A stretch of 64,000 nt of DNA from positions 1 to 64,000 of the forward strand of contig DASYSS010000070.1 of NCBI GenBank assembly GCA_036003045.1. The letters are read 5' to 3'. Every line of letters starts with the position of its first letter. Position 1 is the stretch's first letter. The translations under genes were made by a program, and so were the position numbers. Shown piece by piece: positions 49,925 to 50,389 of the stretch. The notes beneath the pieces were generated by a model. That model saw only the letters and a program-made list of their open reading frames with translations, ran no database searches and was not told the origin of the DNA. The DNA comes from Gemmatimonadaceae bacterium (lineage in GTDB: Bacteria > Gemmatimonadota > Gemmatimonadetes > Gemmatimonadales > Gemmatimonadaceae).

Positions 49925-50389
49925 ATGACCGCTCCCGCTTCCACTCTTCGCACGTACGACGTCGGCGCGCGCTCGACCGACGTCTTCGGCCGCGTCCTCG
50001 TCAGCTCGCGCGACCACCATTTCATCGTCGACGGACCGGTGCAGAACGGTTGCCCGGGCGAGGAGATCACGCCCGTGGAGCTGTTTCTCACGGCGGTCGC
50101 GGCATGCGGCGTAGAGCTCGTCCACGTGATCGCGCGCGACACGAACGCCCCGCTCGATCGCGTCGCCGTGCGAATTCACGGCGAAGTCGATCGCACGAAG
50201 CAGGCGCGCACCGACCTCACCACGCTCAACGCCGTTCGCCTCGACTTCACGCTCTGGGGCACCGACGGCGCCAGCGCCGCGGCACTCGTCGAGGGCTTCA
50301 AGCGGCGGTGACCGCTGTACGGCACGGTCGCGGTCGCGACCCCCGACGTTCACGTGTCGTTCGAGCTCGGCGACAAAGCCGCGCGCTAG
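49925..50389 (+). CDS. OsmC-family redox protein with in-frame TGA (candidate selenocysteine, U129)
   Basis: ATG 49925 to TAG 50387-50389 is 154 residues if the TGA at 50309-50311 is read through; otherwise the protein ends at 128. The first family cysteine is in TAVAACGVELVHV (C61). The TGA falls at codon 129, where OsmC relatives have the second Cys in a C-P-[VL]-x-x-T motif. Here the text runs GFKRR-TGA-PLYGTVAVATPDVHV and continues in frame through SFELGDKAAR, the normal family end. The spacing 61/129 matches the spacing of Cys59/Cys125 in E. coli OsmC. Such proteins reduce organic hydroperoxides. The simple alternative is a nonsense mutation of TGC. The stem-loop at 50326-50341 supports recoding. 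Confidence 0.7.
50326..50341 (+). promoter_or_regulatory. Candidate bacterial SECIS stem-loop
   Basis: GGTCGC (50326-50331) pairs perfectly with GCGACC (50336-50341) around the loop GGTC, whose first base lies 20 nt after the TGA. Bacterial SECIS elements are short hairpins in the coding sequence just downstream of UGA with a G among the first loop bases. The fit is good, but the stem is only 6 bp and such hairpins arise by chance in GC-rich DNA. Confidence 0.5.

Follow-up and report, generated by a model that had tools for sequence, protein, structure and literature searches.

A highly probable OsmC-family selenoprotein of Gemmatimonadaceae with selenocysteine in place of the second catalytic cysteine

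OsmC-like selenoproteins have been known since 2005, when three sequences were described from the Sargasso Sea survey (PMC1088965), and five sequences are contained in the GOS survey (PMC2398784). The 2026 inventory of 119 selenoprotein families and subfamilies features an OsmC-like selenoprotein with the single motif UxxT (PMC13188914). The original prediction for the gene described here had stated that such proteins are already reported, which is correct. In the Ohr/OsmC enzymes, the first Cys is the attacking residue; an intramolecular disulfide is formed after peroxide reduction and is recycled by lipoyl-dependent systems (PMC8945050). The bacterial SECIS element, in turn, is a hairpin located shortly after the UGA that carries a G in a small apical loop (PMC1088965).

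The gene lies on the forward strand of a 64,000-nucleotide stretch of a Gemmatimonadaceae contig (this whole stretch is hereafter called the window) and features the following elements:

49925 to 50389, plus strand: coding sequence of the putative OsmC-family selenoprotein, 154 residues including Sec129, with the TAG stop at 50387 to 50389
50051 to 50053, plus strand: codon of Cys43 in the motif NGCPGE, invariant across 10 aligned members
50105 to 50107, plus strand: TGC codon of Cys61, matching the first of the two catalytic Cys in Ohr/OsmC
50309 to 50311, plus strand: in-frame TGA, codon 129, in all probability read as selenocysteine; matching the second of the two catalytic Cys in Ohr/OsmC
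50326 to 50341, plus strand: candidate bacterial SECIS-type hairpin GGTCGC-GGTC-GCGACC, with a 6 bp stem and a GGUC loop

Re-reading of the sequence reproduced the positions initially assigned to the ATG (49925), the Cys61 codon, the TGA, and the TAG. The open reading frame contains a single in-frame TGA, and its translation reads MTAP...VAAC61GVEL...FKRRU129PLYGTVAVATPDVHV...KAAR*. Translated with Cys substituted for the TGA, the protein matches the Pfam OsmC model (PF02566) with 38.6 bits at a cut-off of 27.5 bits, which places it in the OsmC superfamily; the match extends over residues 45–136 and, hence, spans the TGA position. Upstream of the gene lies a protein kinase with TPR repeats and downstream, on the opposite strand, a GH18 glycosidase. 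The gene has no conserved operon around it. In one relative's genome (G042), a gene for methionine sulfoxide reductase A (MsrA; L103 5900–6612, minus strand; Pfam PMSR, 227.9 bits) directly follows the selenoprotein gene, and another relative (L108) shows a sequence with the same start. The MsrA gene of G042 is the sole hint from gene context.

The AlphaFold2 model of the protein has a pLDDT of 81.8 and a pTM of 0.79 and is weak at residues 38–44. Cys43, a third invariant cysteine, sits in this low-confidence loop. The top structural matches are OsmC/Ohr proteins: 3cje with a Z score of 13.0 (rmsd 2.5, 121 aligned residues), 6mjn with 12.0, and E. coli OsmC (1nye) with 10.1. Sequence similarity to Ohr proteins of known structure is weak (E 3e-5); in the profile alignment, residues 61 and 129 coincide with the catalytic cysteine pair of Ohr (9jx6). 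The initial assignment of the TGA to the second catalytic Cys, with the first Cys intact, is borne out by this pairing, and Cys61 is invariant in the aligned members.

Relatives of the gene were collected in several searches. Within the order, a search of 201 genomes revealed eight close relatives of 52–75% identity, seven of which carry TGA at the matching codon and one of which does not. Across the 179 genomes available for the taxonomic family, a profile search yielded 13 genes: 11 with the TGA, the window gene counted, and two without. One further Cys form from another family came from a sample of the phylum, and scanning genome contigs brought up one more TGA form, located on a contig with a Betaproteobacteria bin assignment. 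Across these 15 subfamily members, codon 129 is TGA in 12 and TGC in three, and the motif that follows is always P-L-[YF]-G-[TS]. The codon that relatives carry at the TGA site, named at the outset as a check, is TGA or TGC, with conservation continuing downstream. The TGA forms span 12 genomes of at least eight genera; the reading frames are intact, and purifying constraint is seen throughout. The host assembly, a draft in 106 contigs, lends some ground to the idea of a sequencing error at the TGA or of a decaying pseudogene; the recurrence of the TGA in 12 genomes with intact, constrained frames makes this a practically negligible reading. Sequencing error in particular is ruled out because such a recurrence could not have arisen independently 12 times.

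Two of the three TGC forms (L106, L110, and L111) share their locus with TGA forms: in genus g10, TGA forms (G114 and G188) and TGC forms (G030 and G268) occur behind one common upstream gene. The TGC forms of g10 group with each other in the tree, next to the TGA pair—a pattern that fits a single exchange between Sec and Cys, with several forks being weakly supported. The TGA form from the Betaproteobacteria MAG (L050 5001–5414) sits on a 13 kb contig and is nested in the tree of the window gene's family. Its neighbor genes look proteobacterial; horizontal transfer is possible, misbinning being the alternative. The plasmid collection yielded no homologue.

The stretch behind the TGA bears the marks of a translated sequence. 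Among the 12 TGA forms, the valines at positions +13 and +15 are invariant, whereas codon identity at these positions is just 0.21 and 0.38. Synonymous codon sharing—the mean frequency of a common codon where two sequences have the identical amino acid—is 0.36 from +12 onward in the same forms. Invariant valines with varying codons therefore indicate that the tail is translated and under protein-level selection. The gene combines an in-frame UGA aligned to Cys in homologues with conserved residues downstream, a mark of bacterial selenoproteins in general. If the UGA were an ordinary stop, the working protein would have 128 residues and the resemblance downstream would be a relic or chance. UGA does serve as a normal stop elsewhere, including in some relatives of the gene (L101, L104, and L105). 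However, the amino acids past the TGA are conserved while their codons vary, three relatives with TGC at codon 129 read through, and TGA, rather than TAA or TAG, has been retained in 12 genomes; a stop would moreover deprive the protein of its second catalytic position, along with the final strand of its fold. Termination at codon 129 is accordingly a very improbable reading.

The hairpin was found where it had been claimed, at 50326–50341, with 14 nt from the TGA to the stem and 20 nt to the G that opens the loop. All 72 pair cells of the 12 TGA forms are standard pairs, that is, the stem is 100% paired. Two-sided changes occur in three of the six pairs: G-C to C-G (L050), G-C to A-U (L109), and C-G to U-A (L104); the compensation in L109 coincides with an amino acid change from VAVAT to IAVAV. 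None of 500 shuffles scored as high, and slid controls were 25–67% paired. Codons +5 to +10, which make up the hairpin, have a synonymous codon sharing of 0.85 in the TGA forms, the first of 71 windows of codons, as compared with 0.52 upstream of the TGA. Two of the three Cys forms keep only two of the six pairs, and the third (L111) keeps five. With its 6 bp stem, its GGUC loop, and complete pairing plus compensatory changes across 12 sequences, the hairpin matches the description of a bacterial SECIS. Folding of the mRNA, which had been proposed as a check, gave a fold energy for the single sequence that is no better than that of shuffles (z = -0.21), and single-sequence folding was dropped as evidence. 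When TVAVAT is encoded at random with the local codon usage, approximately 21% of the synonymous versions are expected to form such a hairpin. It is thus unremarkable in one sequence and gains significance because it is conserved in 12 of 12 TGA forms. An Rfam search of the hairpin region returned chance matches only. The hairpin of L111 (near 7131, G376:C213), a Cys form in whose genome no tRNA-Sec was detected, is possibly a SECIS fossil or a chance product of coding VAVA; the fossil is mentioned as a remark only, since a hairpin of this kind is fairly likely to result from the coding of VAVA by itself.

The host genome, a 5.37 Mb draft with a completeness of 98.5%, encodes a complete selenocysteine system. 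It carries one strong tRNA-Sec (70.1 bits at a gathering score of 47), called by ARAGORN as tRNA-SeC with anticodon tca, in addition to SelA (550 bits), SelB (324 bits, main part of the protein), and SelD (377 bits), the gene of the latter lying directly upstream of tRNA-Sec. All four components whose absence would have spoken against a selenoprotein are, hence, present. Within the taxonomic family, tRNA-Sec occurs in 10 of the 11 genomes with TGA forms. It was not found in the remaining one (G242), which is 72% complete, nor in the 1.7 Mb MAG carrying L050; incompleteness may account for both. Both g10 genomes with TGC forms possess tRNA-Sec; in G376, a distant genome with a TGC form (93% complete), none was found. 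Decoding of the UGA as another amino acid, through an altered code or a suppressor tRNA, is conceivable in principle, with no observation in its favor. Against this stand the complete Sec system of the host, the relatives with Cys and never any other residue at codon 129, the use of UGA to terminate other genes of the family, and the hairpin conserved at SECIS spacing—so that decoding as anything but selenocysteine is exceedingly unlikely.

As judged by these sequence comparisons, the open reading frame 49925–50389 almost certainly encodes a selenoprotein in which UGA129 is read as selenocysteine. The original prediction of a Sec-containing OsmC-family protein is strongly supported by tRNA-Sec, SelA, SelB, and SelD, by the TGA and TGC relatives, and by the conserved hairpin. 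The ribosome would reach UGA129, where the hairpin 14 nt downstream would recruit SelB with Sec-tRNA(Sec); selenocysteine would be inserted, and translation would continue for 25 codons to the UAG. The product is predicted to adopt the OsmC/Ohr subunit fold, with Cys61 in a long helix (residues 50–72) and Sec129 between two C-terminal helices. The protein is very probably an OsmC-type redox enzyme that works through the Cys61/Sec129 pair, and a recoded OsmC/Ohr selenoprotein with this redox pair is, with comparably high confidence, the best explanation as a whole. Its likely role would be the thiol- or selenol-dependent reduction of a peroxide-type oxidant, a substrate suggested, like the peroxidase activity itself, by family resemblance at low identity. 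The expected intermediate would be a Cys61–Sec129 selenenylsulfide, presumably recycled by a dithiol donor.

Which residue of the pair attacks is less firmly assigned, also in view of the third invariant Cys, Cys43. By analogy with Ohr, Cys61 would attack and Sec129 resolve, an order that is slightly favored. The chances that recoding holds and the chemistry is reversed, with Sec129 attacking and Cys61 resolving, are a little short of even. Most redox selenoproteins attack with their Sec, which counts for the reversal. In addition, Sec has been retained at position 129 and is never seen at 61 among the 15 members, and the position of the Glu that neighbors the first Cys in Ohr (NPEQ) is taken by a variable residue in the alignment, the invariant Glu being located one place later (E52). 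Opposed to this, Cys61 is conserved without exception, and it is the first Cys that attacks in Ohr/OsmC (PMC8945050).

A second group of OsmC proteins, which belongs to a sister family within the order, carries TGA at the first catalytic Cys (L112–L121, L034, and L037; motifs GAUTSMT, GAUMSMT, and GSUMSMT). The genomes of this group are G043, G059, G121, G075, G061, G045, G081, G133, G002, G185, G175, and G014, and tRNA-Sec is present in all 12. A conserved hairpin, TCGCGC-TGTAT-GCGCGA, follows downstream—with a C in the loop in two—and Cys forms exist (L036, L042, and L043). The group resembles the window protein in belonging to the OsmC superfamily, in having TGA for a catalytic Cys, and in residing in genomes with tRNA-Sec, but differs in its intact second Cys (CPVHRT) and shares with it only approximately 22–29% identity over the stretch that matches. 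Its members reach at most 54 bits on the NCBIfam model NF041052 (cut-off 95) and may represent a further OsmC selenoprotein type. A broader picture, in which the window gene stands for a distinct subfamily with Sec129 attacking and the Ohr/OsmC roles reversed, while a sister lineage of the order independently acquired Sec at the first Cys, is a tentative one, with odds clearly below even. Sec and Cys orthologues at one locus in one genus, together with Sec at either Cys in sister families, form a natural experiment on how a single enzyme fold benefits from selenium in the attacking as opposed to the resolving position.

With the catalogued OsmC-like selenoprotein (PF02566/COG1765, UxxT), the window protein shares the OsmC superfamily, Sec at a catalytic Cys position, and a bacterial SECIS. 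In contrast, its motif is U-P-L-Y-G-T, with Tyr at +3 (Phe in L109) in place of the Thr of UxxT. On NF041052 (OsmC_like_Se), a model of OsmC-related (seleno)proteins, it scores 30.4 bits and, hence, stays below the cut-off of 95. The only member found above this cut-off in the phylum, L069, has C-Y-M-T at the first cysteine; in the family of G442, Cys forms only and no Sec form of NF041052 were found. From the Cys form L069, UxxT most likely marks Sec at the first Cys, and on that account the window gene is assigned to a subfamily of its own, in which Sec takes the place of the second Cys. A literature search on OsmC with selenocysteine, Gemmatimonadetes selenoproteins, and NF041052 yielded nothing on a second-Cys type, and this placement seems to be absent from the catalogued OsmC selenoproteins. 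The gene would add a selenoprotein subfamily whose motif is not listed among the 119 families and subfamilies of the 2026 inventory (PMC13188914) and which standard annotation would end at the UGA. Its Cys orthologues L106, L110, and L111 belong to the same subfamily, with TGC replacing TGA and the hairpin lost in two of the three. With Ohr (TIGR03561) and OsmC, the protein has in common the fold, the two catalytic positions, and the Pro after the second Cys, which Ohr has in its VCPY motif. In contrast to them, it has Sec instead of the second Cys, Cys43 as an additional invariant cysteine, and a Glu shifted by one place, and its score on TIGR03561 is 20.5 bits at a cut-off of 88.85, which sets it apart from the Ohr family proper.
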